The position numbers and the translations under genes are program-made. From the NCBI RefSeq assembly GCF_013373795.3, contig NZ_CP088022.1, positions 6,014,001 to 6,078,000 on the forward strand: a stretch of 64,000 nt of DNA, in the 5' to 3' direction. Origin of the DNA: Bradyrhizobium quebecense (lineage in GTDB: Bacteria; Pseudomonadota; Alphaproteobacteria; Rhizobiales; Xanthobacteraceae). A model generated the notes under the pieces. That model saw only the letters and a program-made list of their open reading frames with translations, made no database searches and was not told where the DNA came from. This document shows, piece by piece, positions 13,852 to 62,120 of this stretch; position 1 is the first letter of the stretch; every line of letters starts with the position of its first letter.

Positions 13852-13866
13852 CTCCAGCCGCCGCTT

Positions 13867-14060
13867 CACCTCGCCCCGCTCTTGCGGGGAGAGGTCGAAG
13901 CCGAAGGCTTCGGGTGAGGGGTTCCTCCGCAATGACGGTTTCCTTTGTTGTCCGGTGAGGATTTCCGAGTCGGAGTGGGCTATGGTGCGGCACGATCGTG
14001 CCATGCCCCTCACCCGGCGCTGCGCGCCGACCTCTCCCCGCAAAAGGGCGGGGCGAGGTG
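13867..14060. repeat. Long intergenic inverted repeat (CTCTCC family, copy 1)
   Basis: The metH-maiA gap is filled by a nearly symmetrical element of about 194 bp. It begins CACCTCGCCCCGC and ends GCGGGGCGAGGTG. Each arm, about 55 bp, contains a smaller GC hairpin, GAGAGGTCG and a GGGTGAGGGG block, read inward from both ends. The centre (CGCAATGACGG... to ...CGATCGTGCC) is unrelated. A second copy of the same design is at 46861-47023 and a single hairpin of this type is at 15019-15037. Confidence 0.7.
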
Positions 14061-14077
14061 AACATCGGACCCTCCCC

Positions 14078-16202: not shown

Positions 16203-16324
16203 ATCAAAGCTCCACGACGGTGAGTGTCGCGCAGAGCTTGGACCGAAGTCTCACGGGGAGTCCGCCTTGTCCCCTTGGCAGGAACTCCAGACCACCTCGC
16301 GCAGGTTTCAAGATGGAAGTGGGA

Positions 16325-18383: not shown

Positions 18384-18459
18384 CCGGGGCACGGGGATGT
18401 GCGATCTCCCCGCGAGGCGACATGCCCAAGAATCGCGTCCTGTTCACCAAGGACGCACC

Positions 18460-19278
18460 ATGTCGTCATACACATCGATCTCATCCGAAAAACTGTCTCG
18501 TCTCATCGGTACGGCCAAGGCGCCGGCGCTTGTCGACGTTCGCCTCGATGAGGATTTCGTCGCCGATCCGCGCTTGATCCCGGGCGCTATCCGGCGCTCC
18601 CATCTCGACGTCGAGGATTGGGCTTCCGGCCTCTCCGGCCAATCCGTGGTCGTCGTCTGCCAGAGGGGGCAGAAACTGGCCGAAGGCACCGCCGCCTGGC
18701 TGCGGTGCAGCAACATTGCAGCTGAAGTTCTGGAGGGTGGGCACCTCGGCTGGAGGGAAGCGGAACTTCCGACCGTTCCCGCCGACAGGATTCCGAAACG
18801 TGACGGGCGCGGCCGCACCATCTGGGTGACGCGATCGCGACCGAAGATCGATCGCATCGCCTGTCCGTGGCTGATCCGACGCTTTGTCGATCCCGCGGCC
18901 GTCTTTCTGTTCGTCACATCGGCGGAGGTCGAAGGCGTCGCCGACCGATTCGAGGCCACGCCGTTCGATATCGAGAATGTGTTCTGGAGCCATCGCGGCG
19001 AACTCTGCACGTTCGACGTCATGGTGAAGGAATTTGGTCTCTCGACGCCGGCGCTGGAGCGGCTCGCGACGATGGTGCGCGCCGCGGACACCGCGCGGCT
19101 CGAGCTTTCGCCGGAGGCGTCCGGACTGCTCGCCGCCTCGCTCGGCCTGTCGCGCATGTTCGACGACGACCTCGAACAGTTGAGCGCCGGCATGCTGCTC
19201 TACGACGCCTTCTATCGCTGGTGCCGCGACGCGACCCGCGAGACGCACAACTGGCCGACCAGCAAGGTGAAGCCATGA
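18460..19278 (+). CDS. chrB: Rhodanese-ChrB fusion, chromate resistance/regulatory protein
   Basis: A 272-residue two-domain protein. Residues about 1-100 are rhodanese-like: LVDVRLDEDFVADPRLIPGA and VVVVCQRGQKLAEGTAAWLR, with the active-site loop CQRGQK, so the catalytic Cys is present. Residues about 120-270 are the ChrB C-terminal domain: IWVTRSRPKIDRIACPWLIR, RFVDPAAVFLFV, FDVMVKEFGL, LLYDAFYRWCRD. ChrB senses or binds chromate in known chr operons. The start has AAGGA 6 bp upstream and avoids a longer reading over the promoter. The stop overlaps the chrA start as ATGA, so the two are coupled. The rhodanese fusion suggests a sulfur-relay or redox role, which is inference. Confidence 0.85.
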   Translation: MSSYTSISSEKLSRLIGTAKAPALVDVRLDEDFVADPRLIPGAIRRSHLDVEDWASGLSGQSVVVVCQRGQKLAEGTAAWLRCSNIAAEVLEGGHLGWREAELPTVPADRIPKRDGRGRTIWVTRSRPKIDRIACPWLIRRFVDPAAVFLFVTSAEVEGVADRFEATPFDIENVFWSHRGELCTFDVMVKEFGLSTPALERLATMVRAADTARLELSPEASGLLAASLGLSRMFDDDLEQLSAGMLLYDAFYRWCRDATRETHNWPTSKVKP

Positions 19279-33535: not shown

Positions 33536-34357
33536 TCAGACCACCCGGCGGCGTTGGCCGCGCCACCAAAGGCCGAAGGCGATCGTGACCGCGGCGGCCA
33601 GCGAGAACCAGGTGATGGCGTACTGCATGTGGTCGTCCTTGAGCCGCACCTTGAGCGGTCCGGGCTTTGGCGTGGCGCTGTCGGGCACCGGCGCCTCGAG
33701 GTCGATGTAGAACGGCGCGACCTCGCCCCAACCGAGCACCTGCGCCATCGCGCGATGATCGCGCACGAACCACAGCCGCTTCGGCAGATCTTCTTTCGGC
33801 GTCAGCCGGCCCGGCGGCTCGGGAAAGCGGATGTAACCAGTCAGCTCAACCGGCGCGCCGGTGACGAGACGGCCGGCGACGCGATCCTCGAAGGCACGGT
33901 CCTGCATCGTGTTCTGGACAAAGCCGGTGTTGATCACGATGGTCTCGCCGCTGGCGAGCTTGGCCGGCAGGAACGCCCAGGTGCCGGGTCCCGCGACATC
34001 GTCGCGCACCGCCGAGCCGGAGCTGAAGACCATCGCGTCCGGCTGTTTGACGTAGGTTGCGGTCAGCGTAACGCGGCGGAATTCATCCTTGGCCGAGGTC
34101 ACTGCAGGCCACGCCGATGGCGGCGGCAGCGCCTCGGTCGGGGCGGCCAGCCGCTCGTCGAGCGCGGCGATCAGCGCATGCTTCTCCACCCGGCGCTGCA
34201 ACTGCCAGACGCCGAGGGCGATGAACACCGCGATCAGGATCAGCGTGAAGACACCGAAGCCGGCCGCGCTCGGCCGCTGAGAGCCCTTTGACGCGTTTCC
34301 TCCGCGCGAACCGGTGCCCACTTCGCTGGAAAACGCCTTGTTCGTCGCATCATTCAT
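33536..34357 (-). CDS. SURF1-family cytochrome oxidase assembly protein
   Basis: A 273-residue inner-membrane protein that helps insert haem a into subunit I of the aa3 oxidase. Two helices frame a periplasmic domain: FGVFTLILIAVFIALGVWQL (about residues 34-53) and ITWFSLAAAVTIAFGLWWRG at the C-terminus. ALGVWQLQRR and the late HMQYAITWFSLA are SURF1 hallmarks. Residues about 8-24 (AFSSEVGTGSRGGNASK) are not SURF1-like: they are the translation of a dispersed intergenic repeat that is also found at 55079-55130 and 62069-62120. Last gene of the cta operon in this window, overlapping the DUF983 stop by a few bases. Confidence 0.92.
   Translation of the reverse strand: MNDATNKAFSSEVGTGSRGGNASKGSQRPSAAGFGVFTLILIAVFIALGVWQLQRRVEKHALIAALDERLAAPTEALPPPSAWPAVTSAKDEFRRVTLTATYVKQPDAMVFSSGSAVRDDVAGPGTWAFLPAKLASGETIVINTGFVQNTMQDRAFEDRVAGRLVTGAPVELTGYIRFPEPPGRLTPKEDLPKRLWFVRDHRAMAQVLGWGEVAPFYIDLEAPVPDSATPKPGPLKVRLKDDHMQYAITWFSLAAAVTIAFGLWWRGQRRRVV
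34287..34337. repeat. Dispersed repeat (ACGCGAACCGGT family) inside SURF1
   Basis: TTTGACGCGTTTCCTCCGCG followed by AACCGGTGCCCACTTCGCTG and GAAAACGCC. The same 51-bp unit, with only a few differences, occurs in intergenic DNA at 55079-55130 and 62069-62120. Here it is in frame in the SURF1 coding region. Confidence 0.8.
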
Positions 34358-34740
34358 TGCGGGTCGCGCTCGATCAATTGGCCTTCGGCGGCCTTGTGGT
34401 GGAATTGCAGCGCGATCAGCAGCGCCTTCATCGAACGCAGCGGCAGGATCGTGGTGACCACGATCAACGGTAGCCACAGCGCGGCGTGAACCCAGAATGG
34501 CGGCTGGTACTTCACCTCGACGATCAGCGCCGCCGCGACCACGATGGCGCCGGCCAGCATGATGACGAAGATCGCCGGACCGTCGCCGGCATCGATGAAG
34601 GCGAAGTCGAGGCCGCAGGCCTGGCAGCGCGGCGCCAGCGTCAGGAAGCCGGAATAGAGCTTGCCCTTGCCGCAGCGCGGGCAGCGGCAGGCGATGCCGC
34701 GCAGCGCGCTTTCGGTCACAGTGGGCGGGGTGTCGGTCAT
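34354..34740 (-). CDS. DUF983 zinc-ribbon membrane protein of the cta operon
   Basis: A 128-residue protein with an N-terminal zinc ribbon (CRCPRCGKGKLYSGFLTLAP, then CQACGLDF; four Cys in CPRC and CQAC) and two membrane helices (about 50-70 and 78-98). DUF983 proteins lie in oxidase operons of alphaproteobacteria between ctaE and SURF1, as here, but have no proven function; a metal or haem assembly role is plausible. A terminator-like hairpin separates it from ctaE, and its end overlaps the SURF1 start. Confidence 0.85.
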   Translation of the reverse strand: MTDTPPTVTESALRGIACRCPRCGKGKLYSGFLTLAPRCQACGLDFAFIDAGDGPAIFVIMLAGAIVVAAALIVEVKYQPPFWVHAALWLPLIVVTTILPLRSMKALLIALQFHHKAAEGQLIERDPQ

Positions 34741-46828: not shown

Positions 46829-46860
46829 TCGTTCAAGCTGTATCCGCTTGAGAGATGCAG

Positions 46861-47023
46861 CCTCTCCCCTTGTGGGAGAGGCCGGAGCGCATGAAGCGAA
46901 GCGCAATGCGGTCCGGGTGAGGGGTCGCGGTCTCTCGAGGGACTTCAGTTCACGGACAGACCTGAACCCCTCACCCGGATTGCATCTGGCGATGCAATCC
47001 GACCTCTCCCACAAGGGGAGAGG
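46861..47023. repeat. Long intergenic inverted repeat (CTCTCC family, copy 2)
   Basis: Starts CCTCTCCCCTTGTGGGAGAG and ends with its counterpart CTCTCCCACAAGGGGAGAGG; inner blocks GGGTGAGGGG and CCCCTCACCC also face each other. The GCATC/GATGC stem near 46982-46997 is extra. Same architecture as 13867-14060, so one family. It lies between convergent genes and may terminate transcription from both sides. Confidence 0.7.
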
Positions 47024-47047
47024 TGTCGTTGCGCAAGTGGAGAGACG

Positions 47048-55078: not shown

Positions 55079-55130
55079 TTTGACGCGTTTTCTTCACGCG
55101 AACCGGTATCCACTTCGCTGGAAAACGCTT
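55079..55130. repeat. Dispersed repeat (ACGCGAACCGGT family), intergenic copy
   Basis: TTTGACGCGTTTTCTTCACG, then CGAACCGGTATCCACTTCGC, then TGGAAAACGCTT. It runs up to the stop codon of the acyl-CoA dehydrogenase gene. Same unit as at 34287-34337 and 62069-62120. Confidence 0.8.
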
Positions 55131-56917
55131 CAGAACGCTTCCGCGGCCAATTCCATCGTGGTGGCGCTGCCGCTCTGGATCCGGGCCAGATGCACGGCGG
55201 TCTCCGGCAGCAGCCGCTCCATGAAGAAGCGGCCGGTCACGAGCTTGGTGTTGAGATAGGGCGTGGCGCCGGCGGCGGCCTTGTCCTGCGCCACCTTGGC
55301 CATCTTCGCCCACATGTAGCCGAGCGCGACGAGGCCGAACAATTTCATGAAATCGGTCGCGGCGGCGCCGGCATTGTCGGGCTTGGTCAGCGCGTTCTGC
55401 ATCAGCCAGCCGGTGGCCTGCTGCAGATGGCCGAGCGCGGTGGAGAGCGGGGTAATGAACGGCTTCATCGCCTCGTCGCCGCCATGCTCCTTGGCGAAGG
55501 CCGCGACCTCGCCGAAGAATGCCATCGCGGCGCGGCCGCCGTCGCGCGGCAGCTTGCGGCCGACCAGGTCGAGCGCCTGGATACCGTTGGCGCCCTCATA
55601 GATCATCGCGATGCGGGCATCGCGCACGAACTGCTCCATGCCGTGCTCGGCGATATAGCCGTGGCCGCCGAACATCTGCTGCGCGGAAACCGTGTTGGCG
55701 AAGCCGGTGTCGGTCAGAACGCCCTTCAGCACCGGCGTCATCAGGCCCATGTGATCGTCGGCGGCCTGGCGGTCCTTCGGGTCGTTGGAGCGGTGCGCGA
55801 CGTCGCTCTTCAGCGCGGTCCACACCACCATGGCGCGCGCCGCCTCGTTGAAGGCGCGGATCGTGAGCAGCGTGCGACGCACGTCGGGATGCACGATGAT
55901 CGGATCGGCCGGCTTGTCGGCCGCCTTGACGCCGGTCAACGAGCGGCCCTGCAGGCGCTCGCGCGCATAGGCGACCGCGTTCTGATAGGCGACCTCGGAC
56001 TGCGCGAGGCCCTGCACGGCGACGCCGAGGCGAGCCTCGTTCATCATCACGAACATGCCCTGCATGCCCTTGTTCTCTTCGCCGATCAGCCAGCCGGTGG
56101 CGTTGTCGTAGTTCATCACACAGGTGGAATTGCCGTGGATGCCCATCTTGTGCTCGATCGAGCCGCAGGTGACGCCGTTGCGCTGGCCGAGCGAGCCGTC
56201 GGCATTGACCAGCACCTTGGGAACGACGAACAGCGAGACGCCCTTGATGCCGGCCGGCGCGCCTTCGATGCGCGCCAGCACCAGGTGGATGATGTTCTCG
56301 GCGAGGTCGTGCTCGCCGGCGGAGATGAAGATCTTGGTGCCCGTGATCTTGAAGCTGCCGTCGGCCTGGCGCACCGCCTTGGTGCGGAGCAGACCGAGAT
56401 CGGTGCCGCACTGCGGCTCGGTCAGGTTCATGGTGCCGGTCCACTCGCCGGCAACCATCTTCGGCACATAGGTCTTCTTCTGCTCGGGGGTGCCGTGCAC
56501 CAGGAGCGCGGCGGTCGCGCCCATGGTCAGCCCGCCATACATCGAGAATGCCATGTTGGCGGAGATCTGGAATTCGTTGACCGCCTGCGAGAGCGTCACC
56601 GGCAGGCCCTGGCCGCCAAATTCAGTCGGCGCCGACAGGCCGAGCCAGCCGCCTTCGGCGACCTGCCTGAAGGCTTCCTTGAAGCCTTTCGGCGTGGTGA
56701 CGCTGCCGTCGTCATTGCGCTTGCAGCCTTCGAGATCGCCTGTGCGATTGAGCGGCTGCAACACCTCTTCGCTGAGCTTGGCGGCCTCGCCGAGGATCGC
56801 CTCGCGCACATCGGCCGACGCATCGGTAAAGCCGGGAAGATTGCCGTAGCGATCGATCTGGAAAACGTCGTTCAACAGGAAGCTGACGTCTTCGACGGGG
56901 GCTTTGTAGGTCGGCAT
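55130..56917 (-). CDS. Acyl-CoA dehydrogenase (FadE/long form)
   Basis: A 595-residue flavoprotein catalysing the first step of beta-oxidation. The N-terminus MPTYKAPVEDVSFLLNDVFQ belongs to the extended ACAD subfamily. FAD/substrate motifs: LTEPQCGTDLGLLRTKAVRQ, FKITGTKIFISAGEHDLAEN. The catalytic Glu is in IAMIYEGANGIQALDLVGRK. The C-terminal about 150 residues are the extra helical domain of this form. A dispersed repeat touches the stop codon. The ATG at 56917 matches the conserved start. Confidence 0.94.
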   Translation of the reverse strand: MPTYKAPVEDVSFLLNDVFQIDRYGNLPGFTDASADVREAILGEAAKLSEEVLQPLNRTGDLEGCKRNDDGSVTTPKGFKEAFRQVAEGGWLGLSAPTEFGGQGLPVTLSQAVNEFQISANMAFSMYGGLTMGATAALLVHGTPEQKKTYVPKMVAGEWTGTMNLTEPQCGTDLGLLRTKAVRQADGSFKITGTKIFISAGEHDLAENIIHLVLARIEGAPAGIKGVSLFVVPKVLVNADGSLGQRNGVTCGSIEHKMGIHGNSTCVMNYDNATGWLIGEENKGMQGMFVMMNEARLGVAVQGLAQSEVAYQNAVAYARERLQGRSLTGVKAADKPADPIIVHPDVRRTLLTIRAFNEAARAMVVWTALKSDVAHRSNDPKDRQAADDHMGLMTPVLKGVLTDTGFANTVSAQQMFGGHGYIAEHGMEQFVRDARIAMIYEGANGIQALDLVGRKLPRDGGRAAMAFFGEVAAFAKEHGGDEAMKPFITPLSTALGHLQQATGWLMQNALTKPDNAGAAATDFMKLFGLVALGYMWAKMAKVAQDKAAAGATPYLNTKLVTGRFFMERLLPETAVHLARIQSGSATTMELAAEAF

Positions 56918-57025
56918 GCTGATCTCCCGGCTGGCTCGCGGTCGCACGCGCGACCGATGTTGCGCAGCTTGTCCTTGGGTTTGTTGGAACGGACCTTATC
57001 CGGTTCGGGAGGTCCGCGGCAGGTC

Positions 57026-58472: not shown

Positions 58473-61400
58473 ATGAATTCGCGCGTATCGTGGAGTGTTG
58501 ACGGCATCGATCCCTCCGTCCGCGACAGGGCCGAGGCGGCTGCGCGCCGCGCCGGCATGTCGCTGAACGACTGGCTCAACTCCACCGTAGGCGAACCGAG
58601 CCCGCCGGATTGGCGCATGGCGCACGAGCAACGGCAGCCGATGCCGAGCCGGGAAAGCCGCGAGGTCGCCGATATCCATCAGCGGCTCGACGCGATCACC
58701 CGCCAGATCGAACAGATTGCAAAGCCAATGTCGCGCGCCGAAGCCGTGCGCGCCGAAGTGCCGCGCGGCCAGCCCGCCGTCGCACGGCAGCTGAACGACG
58801 CGATTTCGCGCCTCGATGCGCGGCTGTCGCAGATTTCGCGACCGCAGCCGGCGCGCGAGCCGCAACCCCAGCCGATGCGTGAAGCGCAGATGCAGCGGGA
58901 GCCGCAGATGCAGGACCGGCAACTGGAGGAAAGGCTGCGCCAGGCGGAAGCGGTCGAGCGCGCCGCAGCCCAGGTCTACCGCCCCTCGCCGCCGCTGAGC
59001 CCGGCCTCGTTCGATTCCGCGATCGCGGAGATCGCCGCGCGCCAGAACGAGCTCGACGGATCAGCGCAACGGCAGATGCCGCCGCGTAGCGCACCGCCGA
59101 TGCCGCAAGCGGCGCCGCCGATGGCCGCCTATGCGCCGCCGCCGGCTGCGCCGGCCGGGCCCGATTTCTCCTCGCTCGAGCGGCACCTGCTCAAGATCAC
59201 GAGCCAGATCGAGGCACTGCAGCGGCCCGATCATATCGAGCAATCGATCGCGGCCTTCCGCGGCGAGCTTGCCGAAATCCGCCAGGCGATCACCGAGGCG
59301 ATGCCGCGCCGCGCGATCGAATCGATCGAGAACGAGATCCGTTCGCTGCATCACCGGATCGACGAGATCCGCCAGGACAGCAGCAACGGCCAGGGCCAGG
59401 TGATTACCGGCATCGAACGCGCGCTGGCGGAAATCCGCGAGGCGCTGCGCACGCTGACGCCCGCCGAGCAGCTGACCGGCTATGACGAGGCGATCCGCAA
59501 TCTCGGCGCCAAGCTCGACATGATCCTGCGCGCCAACGACGATCCGTCGACGGTGCACCAGCTCGAGAGCGCGATCGCCGCGCTGCGCGCCATCGTCTCC
59601 AATGTCGCCTCCAACGACGCGCTGCTGCAGCTCTCCGGGGACGTGCATGCGCTGGCCGCGAAGGTCGACCAGCTGTCGCAGATGTCGCGCGCCGAGTCCC
59701 ACGTCGATGCCTTCGCCGGGATCGAGCAGCGCATCGCCGCATTGGCCTCGACGCTGGAAACCCGCGAGCGGCCGGTCGCTGGCTACGACAATACCGACGC
59801 CATCGAGGGCGCCCTGCGCTCGCTGTCGGAGCGGATCGACCGCCTGCAGGTCGGCAACGACAGCTCCTCGGCGTTCACCCATCTCGAGCAGCGCGTCTCC
59901 TATCTGCTCGAGCGCCTGGAATCCGCCGACCAGCGCTCCGGCAATCTCGGCCCGGTCGAGGAAGGGCTGCATGACATCATGCGGCACCTCGAGGCGCAGC
60001 ACGCCCACATCGCCTCTCTGGCCGAAGCCACCCGCAACAACATCAACACCGCCGCGCCGCAGCCGATGATGGACAGCGGCATCGTCGACCTGGTGAAGCG
60101 CGAACTGTCCGACATCCGCTTCAGCCAGTCGGAAACCGATCGCCGCACCCAGGATTCGCTGGAGACCGTTCACAACACGCTCGGTCATGTCGTCGATCGG
60201 CTGGCGATGATCGAGAACGATCTGCGCACCGTACGCACCGCGCCGCCGCCGGCCCCTGCGCCGGCCGAACCGCGGATGGAAGCACCGCGCATGGAGATGC
60301 CGCGCGCGGCGATGCCGCAGCCGGTCGCGCAGCCCCAACCTGAATCGTACAGGCCTGAATCGTACCGGCCCGAATTGCCCAATCCTGCGCTGGCGCAGGA
60401 GCACTTCATGTCCGCGCCGCGCGAATTCCATGCCGCGCAGCCGGTCGAGACCGCGCCGCCGCCGCTGCCGCCGCGCGCGATCAGCGAGATCCTCGAGCCG
60501 CATGCCGCCTCCGCGCGCGCCGCGATCGCGCCGGATCTGCCGCCGGATCATCCGCTCGAGCCGGGCACACGCCCCTCGGGCCGCGCGTCGTCGCCGTCGG
60601 AGCGGATCGCGGACTCCGAGCGCGCGATCTCTGATCTTCCCGCCGGCAAGAAGGAGCCGGTCTCGACCTCGAGCTTCATCGCCGCCGCGCGCCGCGCCGC
60701 GCAGGCCGCCGCCGCGCAGCCCGTCAACGACAAGGCCGCGCGTGCAGCGAGCAAGGCCGCCGCCAAGGCCAAGGAGAAGGCCGACAAGGCTGCGAAGGCC
60801 GCGGCCGGCAAGGCCGGCGCGCCGGCGACTGGCGCGTCGGAGACCCAGCCTTCGACCATCACCTCCAAGATCCGCTCGCTGCTGGTCGGCGCGAGCGTGG
60901 TCGTGATCCTGCTCTCGACCGCCAAGATGGCGATGAACCTGCTCGACACCAGCTCCGCGCCGCAGACGCCGGCGATCGAGCACAGCGAGCCGGCCGCGCC
61001 CCCCGTGCAGCCGCCCGCCGAGAACTCTGTCGTCCCAGCACCGGCTGCGCCGTCCGGCACGCCCAGGCCGTCAGCGCCTGGGCCGTCGATGACCTCGCCG
61101 ACTCCGCTCGGCCGCCAGTCCAACAACTCGGCGGCGCCGAACACGCTCGACAGCGCGCAGGTCACGATCCCTCAGGCTCCCGCGCCCGCCGCGGCGCCGG
61201 AGCCGGCCGCGGCACCGGTCGCCGCCGCCAGCGATATCACCGGCACGATTCCGACCGCGCCGCCGCTCGGCGGCAAGCTCGCCACGATCCAGATTCCGGC
61301 GGGCGAGAAGCTGCCCGACGCGATCGGCGGTCCGGCGTTGCGCACGGCTGCGATCAAGGGCGATGCGGCCGCGGCTTACGAGGTCGGCGTCCGCTTTGCC

Positions 61401-62021
61401 GAGGGCAAGGGCGTGCCCGCCAATGTCGACGAGGCGGCCAAATGGTATGGCCGCGCGGCACAGGCCGGCGTGGTGCCCGCGATGTTCCGGCTCGGCACCT
61501 TCTACGAGAAGGGCCTCAGCGTGAAGCGCGATTTCGATGTCGCACGGCGCTACTACGTGCAGGCCGCCGAGCGCGGCAATGCCAAGGCGATGCATAACCT
61601 CGCCGTGCTCGACGCCGATGGCGGCGGCAAGGGCGCCGACTACAAGAGCGCGGCGCAGTGGTTCCGCAAGGCGGCCGATCGCGGCGTCGCCGACAGCCAG
61701 GTCAACCTCGGCATCCTCTATGCCCGCGGCATCGGGGTCGAACAGAACCTCGCAGAATCCTTCAAGTGGTTCAGCCTTGCGGCCGCACAGGGCGACGCCG
61801 ACGCCGGTCACAAGCGCGACGATATCGCCAAGCGGCTCGACCCGCAGTCGCTGGCCGCAGCGAAGCTTGCGATCCAGACCTTTACCCCCGAGCCGCAGCC
61901 GAGCGATGCGGTCAACGTGCCGGCCCCGGCCGGCGGCTGGGACGGCGCGCCGGTGCAGCCCGCGGCGGCGAAGTCCGTCAAGCCACCGTCGAAGCGGACC
62001 GCGGCGCTGACCGCACACTAG
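58473..62021 (+). CDS. podJ: PodJ-like polarity/localisation protein with Sel1 repeats
   Basis: A 1182-residue single-pass inner-membrane protein. The N-terminus (SWSVDGIDPSVRDRAEAAAR, RRAGMSLNDWLNSTVGEPSP) resembles PodJ-like proteins. A very long cytoplasmic region is Gln/Ala/Pro-rich with coiled coils (about residues 60-640) and an Ala/Lys-rich segment before the helix LVGASVVVILLSTAKMAMNL (about 803-823). After a Pro-rich periplasmic stretch, four to five Sel1-like repeats (about 965-1130) follow, e.g. AAKWYGRAAQAGVVPAMFRL and ARRYYVQAAERGNAKAMHNL. In Caulobacter PodJ recruits polar proteins. No close partners are encoded nearby. Confidence 0.85.
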   Translation: MNSRVSWSVDGIDPSVRDRAEAAARRAGMSLNDWLNSTVGEPSPPDWRMAHEQRQPMPSRESREVADIHQRLDAITRQIEQIAKPMSRAEAVRAEVPRGQPAVARQLNDAISRLDARLSQISRPQPAREPQPQPMREAQMQREPQMQDRQLEERLRQAEAVERAAAQVYRPSPPLSPASFDSAIAEIAARQNELDGSAQRQMPPRSAPPMPQAAPPMAAYAPPPAAPAGPDFSSLERHLLKITSQIEALQRPDHIEQSIAAFRGELAEIRQAITEAMPRRAIESIENEIRSLHHRIDEIRQDSSNGQGQVITGIERALAEIREALRTLTPAEQLTGYDEAIRNLGAKLDMILRANDDPSTVHQLESAIAALRAIVSNVASNDALLQLSGDVHALAAKVDQLSQMSRAESHVDAFAGIEQRIAALASTLETRERPVAGYDNTDAIEGALRSLSERIDRLQVGNDSSSAFTHLEQRVSYLLERLESADQRSGNLGPVEEGLHDIMRHLEAQHAHIASLAEATRNNINTAAPQPMMDSGIVDLVKRELSDIRFSQSETDRRTQDSLETVHNTLGHVVDRLAMIENDLRTVRTAPPPAPAPAEPRMEAPRMEMPRAAMPQPVAQPQPESYRPESYRPELPNPALAQEHFMSAPREFHAAQPVETAPPPLPPRAISEILEPHAASARAAIAPDLPPDHPLEPGTRPSGRASSPSERIADSERAISDLPAGKKEPVSTSSFIAAARRAAQAAAAQPVNDKAARAASKAAAKAKEKADKAAKAAAGKAGAPATGASETQPSTITSKIRSLLVGASVVVILLSTAKMAMNLLDTSSAPQTPAIEHSEPAAPPVQPPAENSVVPAPAAPSGTPRPSAPGPSMTSPTPLGRQSNNSAAPNTLDSAQVTIPQAPAPAAAPEPAAAPVAAASDITGTIPTAPPLGGKLATIQIPAGEKLPDAIGGPALRTAAIKGDAAAAYEVGVRFAEGKGVPANVDEAAKWYGRAAQAGVVPAMFRLGTFYEKGLSVKRDFDVARRYYVQAAERGNAKAMHNLAVLDADGGGKGADYKSAAQWFRKAADRGVADSQVNLGILYARGIGVEQNLAESFKWFSLAAAQGDADAGHKRDDIAKRLDPQSLAAAKLAIQTFTPEPQPSDAVNVPAPAGGWDGAPVQPAAAKSVKPPSKRTAALTAH

Positions 62022-62061
62022 AGCATTTTCGGTTCTGATTGAATCAGAACCGAAGCTCTAG
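62020..62061. repeat. Palindromic element after podJ
   Basis: AGAGCATTTTCGGTTCTGATT and AATCAGAACCGAAGCTCT form an interrupted inverted repeat overlapping the last base of the podJ stop. It can serve as a terminator and is followed at once by the 62069-62120 repeat. Confidence 0.7.
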
Positions 62062-62068
62062 ATTCTTG

Positions 62069-62120
62069 TTTTGATGCGTTTTCTTCACGCGAACCGGTGT
62101 CCACTTCGCTCGAAAACGCT
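62069..62120. repeat. Dispersed repeat (ACGCGAACCGGT family), third copy
   Basis: TTTTGATGCGTTTTCTTCAC, then GCGAACCGGTGTCCACTTCG, then CTCGAAAACGCT. It is in tandem with the palindrome at 62020-62061, forming a composite element of about 100 bp. Confidence 0.8.

Follow-up and report, generated by a model that had tools for sequence, protein, structure and literature searches.

The DNA analysed here is a window of 64,000 nucleotides from the genome of Bradyrhizobium quebecense (contig NZ_CP088022.1), and all positions given below without further label are those of the window. On its minus strand lies a 273-codon open reading frame (33536..34357) whose ATG at 34357 overlaps the stop codon of the upstream gene as ATGA. 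Its product matches the SURF1 family (Pfam PF02104) over residues 39–255 with an E value of 1e-42 and 147.2 bits, compared with a cut-off of 23.4. The overlapping upstream gene (34354..34740, minus strand) encodes 128 amino acids and, by its letters, is presumably a DUF983-type protein. Residues 8–24 of SURF1 read AFSSEVGTGSRGGNASK, and ordinary SURF1 sequence resumes at RPSAAGF. The corresponding DNA is the core of a repeat, GCGTTTTC...GCGTCAAA (34287..34337, minus strand), with 6 mismatches in 50 positions to the core consensus. The first-pass annotation of this DNA took residues 8–24 to be exactly the translation of the repeat unit. These residues are indeed repeat-encoded, but the match is not exact: identity between the SURF1 copy and the one at 55079 is 88%, and the SURF1 peptide has three residues that depart from AFSSEVDTGSREENASK. 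Likewise, the core does lie at residues 8–24, but the inserted stretch is longer. When 6 filled loci are aligned with 17 empty ones, it comprises about codons 6–27, NKAFSSEVGTGSRGGNASKGSQ (34277..34342, minus strand), and compared with empty-site relatives it replaces two codons, for a net gain of 60 nt or 20 residues. The same genome also contains a second, diverged SURF1-like match with 40% identity (G000:C1:6424734-6425396).

The core pattern occurs three times in the window, always on the minus strand. One further copy (55079..55129) is intergenic and lies directly 3′ of the stop codon of ORF 55130–56947 (minus strand), which, from its letters, we take to encode an acyl-CoA dehydrogenase-like protein. 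The other (62070..62120), also intergenic, forms hairpin module A. Both had been reported before, with boundaries of 55079–55130 and 62069–62120 that are refined here, and both are real, but they greatly understate the family. Across the whole genome (9,172,345 bases in 4 contigs) we found 123 core copies with up to 3 mismatches, so the notion that the repeat has no further copies in the genome fails. Moreover, the family is present in 114 of 198 genomes, some of them incomplete, and in 31 of the 47 genera of the taxonomic family, with no match in the control. Chance resemblance or convergent low-complexity sequence is a practically negligible explanation for the SURF1 segment, given that it matches the consensus at 44 of 50 DNA positions and that the pattern was found neither in 100 dinucleotide-preserving shuffles of the window nor in the reversed-pattern control of the genome. 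In an Rfam search of the window, no family covered the repeat at the gathering threshold. The same search placed the chrB-a and chrB-b RNA motifs above their gathering scores at 18388–18462 (plus strand) and 16231–16275 (minus strand).

To describe the element, we located 115 copies in genome stretches and in the window, among the matches listed and with a pattern that differs from that of the 123-copy search. Their consensus, CTAGAGCGTTTTCGAGCGAAGTGGATACCGGTTCGCGTGAAGAAAACGCGTCAAAACAAGAATCTAGAGC, has CTAG-type ends and gives a full module of about 70 bp, bounded by CTAGAGC, with a core of about 51 bp. The predicted hairpin has the stem GCGTTTTC/GAAAACGC and an inner stem, with an energy of −23.6 kcal/mol. 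The ends of the SURF1 copy match the full module only in part. A second palindrome often follows the element; the consensus contains traces of this partner, module B (CTAGAGC...GCTCTAG), and the sequence has it complete at 62018..62061, joined to the copy at 62070. The CTAG end of module B provides the TAG stop codon (62019–62021) of ORF 58473–62021, and stop codons supplied by element ends are also described for other REPs (PMC3733652). The 115 located copies seem to be unevenly oriented: by a codon score that is coarse, coding signal is commoner on the CTAGAGCG side, where it is mostly directed away from the copy.

Among relatives, the insert was present in 6 of the 110 SURF1 loci read, namely those of the own genome, G004 and L031–L034. 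Of these 110 loci, 80 come from named genome records and are the best among 150 confirmed matches; the other 30 are further places, with some species represented twice. The nearest relatives of this SURF1 are in Bradyrhizobium (best identity 96%), and the database homologues P0001–P0003, among the best 120 of 5504, also have the insert. In the alignment, a 60-column gap falls at one place in all 17 empty loci, and none of the six filled loci has an indel within the insert. Most relatives are thus without the insert, and the proposition that all of them share it fails. It could still be argued that SURF1 ancestrally had the segment and that most relatives lost it: P0003 carries it at only 85% identity, and on the DNA tree of 41 rows the filled or empty state needs at least two changes, which allows one gain and one loss. 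However, the other 104 loci, including every deeper branch among the 41 tree rows, lack the insert, and the insert belongs to a family dispersed elsewhere in the genome. We therefore regard shared ancestry with loss as extremely unlikely. The tree is compatible with a single origin of the SURF1 insert without establishing it, because the base of that group is poorly resolved. Together, the 123 copies and the empty-site relatives support the first-pass view of a mobile or spreading repeat inserted in SURF1, with mobility itself being what we infer from filled and empty orthologous sites.

All frames through the 115 copies were scanned with a codon-usage score, which suggested many additional ORFs running across copies, and 20 ORFs were put to Pfam: 19 of the 21 listed ORFs (without L167 and L197) together with SURF1, 8 of them in the frame that we call AFSSEV and 12 in other frames. 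Pfam and orthologues point to four in-gene cases: SURF1, a dCache-HAMP-GAF-cyclase, CcmC and a DUF1045 protein. All four read the AFSSEV frame (AFSSEVDTGSREENASK), for which the expectation is about 1 in 80 if three open frames are equally likely, a rough figure from few cases. In the cyclase the copy occupies residues 479–495, within a single GAF match (401–559). In CcmC it lies at residues 284–300 of 305, well past the Pfam match (52–223) and on the same conserved reading frame, and the DUF1045 protein (Pfam 62–220) ends in a copy at 231–247. Among the loci read, 3 of 29 orthologous cyclase loci and 2 of 30 DUF1045 loci are filled. For CcmC, 22 of 30 loci have a recognised copy, 5 have an eroded one (judged by eye) and 3 are empty, a count that favours carriers because these 30 are the best matches; many further genomes match CcmC only to about residue 282–290, short of the tail. 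The cyclase insertion, at 1 to 4 consensus mismatches in 50, is probably young, and the one in CcmC is probably old. As judged from these comparisons, copies sit in frame in conserved protein genes with empty-site orthologues, and the earlier proposal that the repeat donates peptide sequence to core genes is supported by the same frame in at least three conserved genes besides SURF1.

The remaining ORFs were set aside. Those in other frames look by eye like shadow ORFs, and no Pfam match among them reaches the copy. In L159, L152 and L023 the Pfam domains begin 35, 51 and 92 residues after the copy; the N-terminal ends are ambiguous, and these cases were therefore left uncounted. An orthologue search with L002 and L207 (both frame 0) placed the copy beyond the part conserved in most relatives, i.e., in C-terminal extensions, and in the G004 orthologue of L002 the copy follows in another frame. 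Both were omitted from the frame count because they had been chosen as frame-0 cases.

A further site of insertion is the linker of ImuB between LPxDRIKR and PSIVVAKQNNA, which is a landing pad for repeats (L342–L371). In 30 loci of Bradyrhizobium-genus genomes, out of 80 searched, the AFSSEV element lies in frame in 5 linkers. An unrelated palindromic repeat of the CCCTCCCCC..GCGGGGGAGGG type, encoding the peptide PPLRGRAGERG/PLPLAGEGWGGG, was recognised by pattern in 10 linkers and by eye in three more (L347, L364 and L368). The remaining 12 loci have a linker of 8–21 residues. On this view, a single linker within the ImuB polymerase domain would have accepted, in different lineages, in-frame insertions of two palindromic repeats that are unrelated to each other. 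The window itself has inverted repeats of the CTCTCCCC..GGGGAGAG type (I1, I14 and I19, at 46843–47041 and 13865–14062) that, by eye, resemble the second ImuB-linker repeat.

Three of the six frames of the element are open end to end. The AFSSEV frame, with its hydrophilic, order-poor peptide AFSSEVDTGSREENASKQESRA, is the poorest of them in order-promoting residues, with 2 of 23 compared with 6 and 7 in the other two. A database search with a padded synthetic AFSSEV query (1175 candidates, about 211–672 residues) gave 426 proteins with the peptide at E ≤ 10. The two remaining open frames together gave 88 proteins from 122 candidates, divided into 37 and 51 per frame. This comparison is uneven because the AFSSEV query held two variants and the control one copy each of two peptides. 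In the best 120 of the 426, the peptide lies within 30 residues of the N-terminus in 36, within 30 residues of the C-terminus in 35 and internally in 49; 96 of these 120 have a precomputed Pfam domain and 28 contain the peptide more than once. The corresponding control numbers are 27 internal cases and 51 proteins with Pfam among the 88. One Pfam match spans the insert in 5 of 20 hand-picked AFSSEV-frame proteins: a dihydroorotate dehydrogenase (P0206), an alpha/beta hydrolase (P0205), a methyltransferase (P0210), RimM (P0175) and ApbE (P0189). The same is true of 2 of 10 hand-picked control-frame proteins (P0279 and P0307); insertions in other frames are therefore tolerated on occasion. In-frame tandem copies of a 19–20 residue unit occur in P0121, P0122, P0123, P0125, P0126 and P0127, for example before PhoB and in ImuB; the repeated copies in the best 120 are not all adjacent.

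Structural models and codon alignments provide a view of what the insert does to its hosts. The SURF1 model, built on 33 sequences with a mean pLDDT of 72.5, falls below 50 at residues 1–27, ahead of a first helix predicted from residue 31, and at 224–232. In the model of the GAF domain (28 sequences, mean pLDDT 75), pLDDT drops below 50 only at 98–119; this stretch corresponds to the insert and forms a loop that connects a strand with a helix. The insert is accordingly predicted to be disordered in both. The pN/pS ratio of the SURF1 insert is 0.51 (6 sequences), compared with 0.165 elsewhere in SURF1, and its pN exceeds that of all 78 windows of the remaining gene. For the CcmC tail the ratio is 0.39, compared with 0.086 in the remainder of CcmC (22 sequences). 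The inserted codons are thus less constrained than their hosts and yet remain in frame, which fits a tolerated passenger.

Two other readings of the SURF1 insert bear on this point. (i) Translation of SURF1 could begin after the repeat, which would then be 5′ leader DNA. This has been argued for many N-terminal REPs, which may be extragenic, and N-terminal cases are described as the most doubtful published class (PMC3733652). In SURF1, codon 13, inside the insert, is GTG and a candidate alternative start, and of the 36 proteins with an N-terminal insert in the top 120 database matches, 15 have a Met within 40 residues after it. A misplaced start is nevertheless very unlikely here. The ATGA overlap with the upstream stop codon is found in 6 of 6 filled and most of the 17 empty SURF1 alleles, all six carriers keep the reading frame without any indel within the insert, and downstream of the insert no start codon occurs before codon 44, which lies inside the predicted helix 31–70. 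In addition, such a model leaves the internal and C-terminal cases (cyclase and CcmC) unexplained. (ii) The segment could have been domesticated, i.e., retained because the tail benefits, for example, the topology or stability of SURF1 or its binding to partners. Consistent with this, pN/pS is below 1 in both the SURF1 and CcmC inserts, and the CcmC tail is found in 27 of 30 loci, including the 5 eroded ones, although these best matches favour carriers. However, the inserts are far less constrained than their host proteins, most visibly in the pN of the SURF1 insert. Some CcmC tails have in-frame deletions, three loci have no tail, and in many further genomes the match ends before it. The same peptide is common to unrelated proteins, which therefore favours tolerance, and we consider domestication unlikely.

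Our preferred reading is that the SURF1 insert is very probably a copy of a short non-autonomous hairpin repeat, tolerated as a disordered segment and probably without a required function. Taken as a whole, the element is most probably a selfish repeat that is tolerated and that persists in proteins through its hydrophilic open frame. The repeat would be copied or moved by a transposase acting in trans, and most insertions into genes would be lost. One of the three frames that are open end to end gives the hydrophilic, order-poor peptide, and insertions in this AFSSEV frame could be tolerated at chain ends, in linkers and in surface loops; for that reason an extra disordered segment may recur in unrelated proteins. 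In SURF1 the result would be a flexible extension ahead of the first helix that probably serves no required function and evolves as ordinary, weakly constrained codons. That the inserted segment is translated, and that it is nearly neutral, we likewise infer. The genome has one Y1_Tnp match, and no copy of the element lies within its 3.3-kb locus. The flanking of a Y1/RAYT gene by copies, which marks a RAYT-mobilised REP, is thus not seen at the sole Y1_Tnp locus, and a RAYT link is not supported. As regards a MITE derived from a known insertion sequence, the consensus has CTAG-type ends, and no target-site duplication was demonstrated.

A broader proposal is that dispersed palindromic repeats generally and continually supply new disordered segments to the proteins of free-living Bradyrhizobium relatives, with favoured landing places, and that a protein-compatible frame is part of the persistence of the element, which would then be a selfish repeat adapted to coding sequence. 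This is conceivable but doubtful. Over the 115 copies of the own genome, mismatches at codon positions 1, 2 and 3 number 123, 130 and 123; there is no codon-position signal, so the copies taken together show no coding selection. This flat result counts against a repeat adapted to coding sequence.

In-frame palindromic repeats have mostly been treated as an oddity of Rickettsia, one common explanation being that selection is relaxed in small populations. With a free-living soil bacterium that has a large genome, many sequenced species and closely related filled and empty alleles, it becomes testable whether the inserts matter to the protein, how the repeats move and why one frame dominates. For annotation there is a warning that one 17-residue peptide, although it turns up in hundreds of predicted proteins unrelated to each other, represents a repeat and not a domain, with the caveat that some cases of repeats in proteins are genuinely coding.

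The first-pass annotation had likened the element to the palindromic elements of Rickettsia (RPE), and in behaviour the comparison holds. As described for RPE (Ogata 2000, 2002, as cited in PMC3733652 and PMC5896051), both are short hairpin repeats that are found between genes and in frame in unrelated genes, and in both the encoded peptide seems to be tolerated. The features of that class seen here are the hairpin-forming sequence, the 123 dispersed copies, and the in-frame copies with empty-site orthologues. The element works like RPE, a likeness that concerns behaviour. In contrast to RPE, whose host is obligate intracellular, it resides in a free-living genus with a genome of 9.17 Mb, and in the sample searched a single frame predominates. 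There are parallels besides Rickettsia, because in-frame REPs of free-living bacteria are in print. REPs inside genes of such bacteria, several of them in DNA repair genes, and REP ends that give stop codons are described by Di Nocera (2013, PMC3733652), where section 15 does not name Bradyrhizobium among the intragenic cases. The GTAG/CGTC REPs of that source are 20–40 bp long with an unpaired tag at one end, whereas the present module is 51–70 bp with CTAG-type ends; by this text definition alone, the element differs in size and tag and was not assigned to them.

Other small repeats are similar in part. Br-REP1 and Br-REP2 of Bradyrhizobium japonicum are also dispersed hairpin repeats of the same genus, reported in intergenic regions and 3′-UTRs (PMC5082802). 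Identity with them was rejected, as the longest shared runs are 6 and 7 nt, lengths reached by 120 and 65 of 500 shuffles. In the open-licence literature searched, which leaves most subscription papers outside, the DNA core of the element matched only as a short 12-letter piece, in three papers on mouse work, and its peptide strings had no match. By description, the QMITEs of Coxiella, in another host and of the MITE type, are likewise small mobile repeats that have become part of proteins by fusion or insertion (PMC5896051), and the enterobacterial repeat units are small mobile repeats in proteins of other hosts, with lengths of 103–168 bp (Delihas, PMC2759123). Intragenic REPs in free-living bacteria are therefore already known, and to these the present element adds clear cases among core enzymes and, within the sample studied, a strong bias towards one frame.
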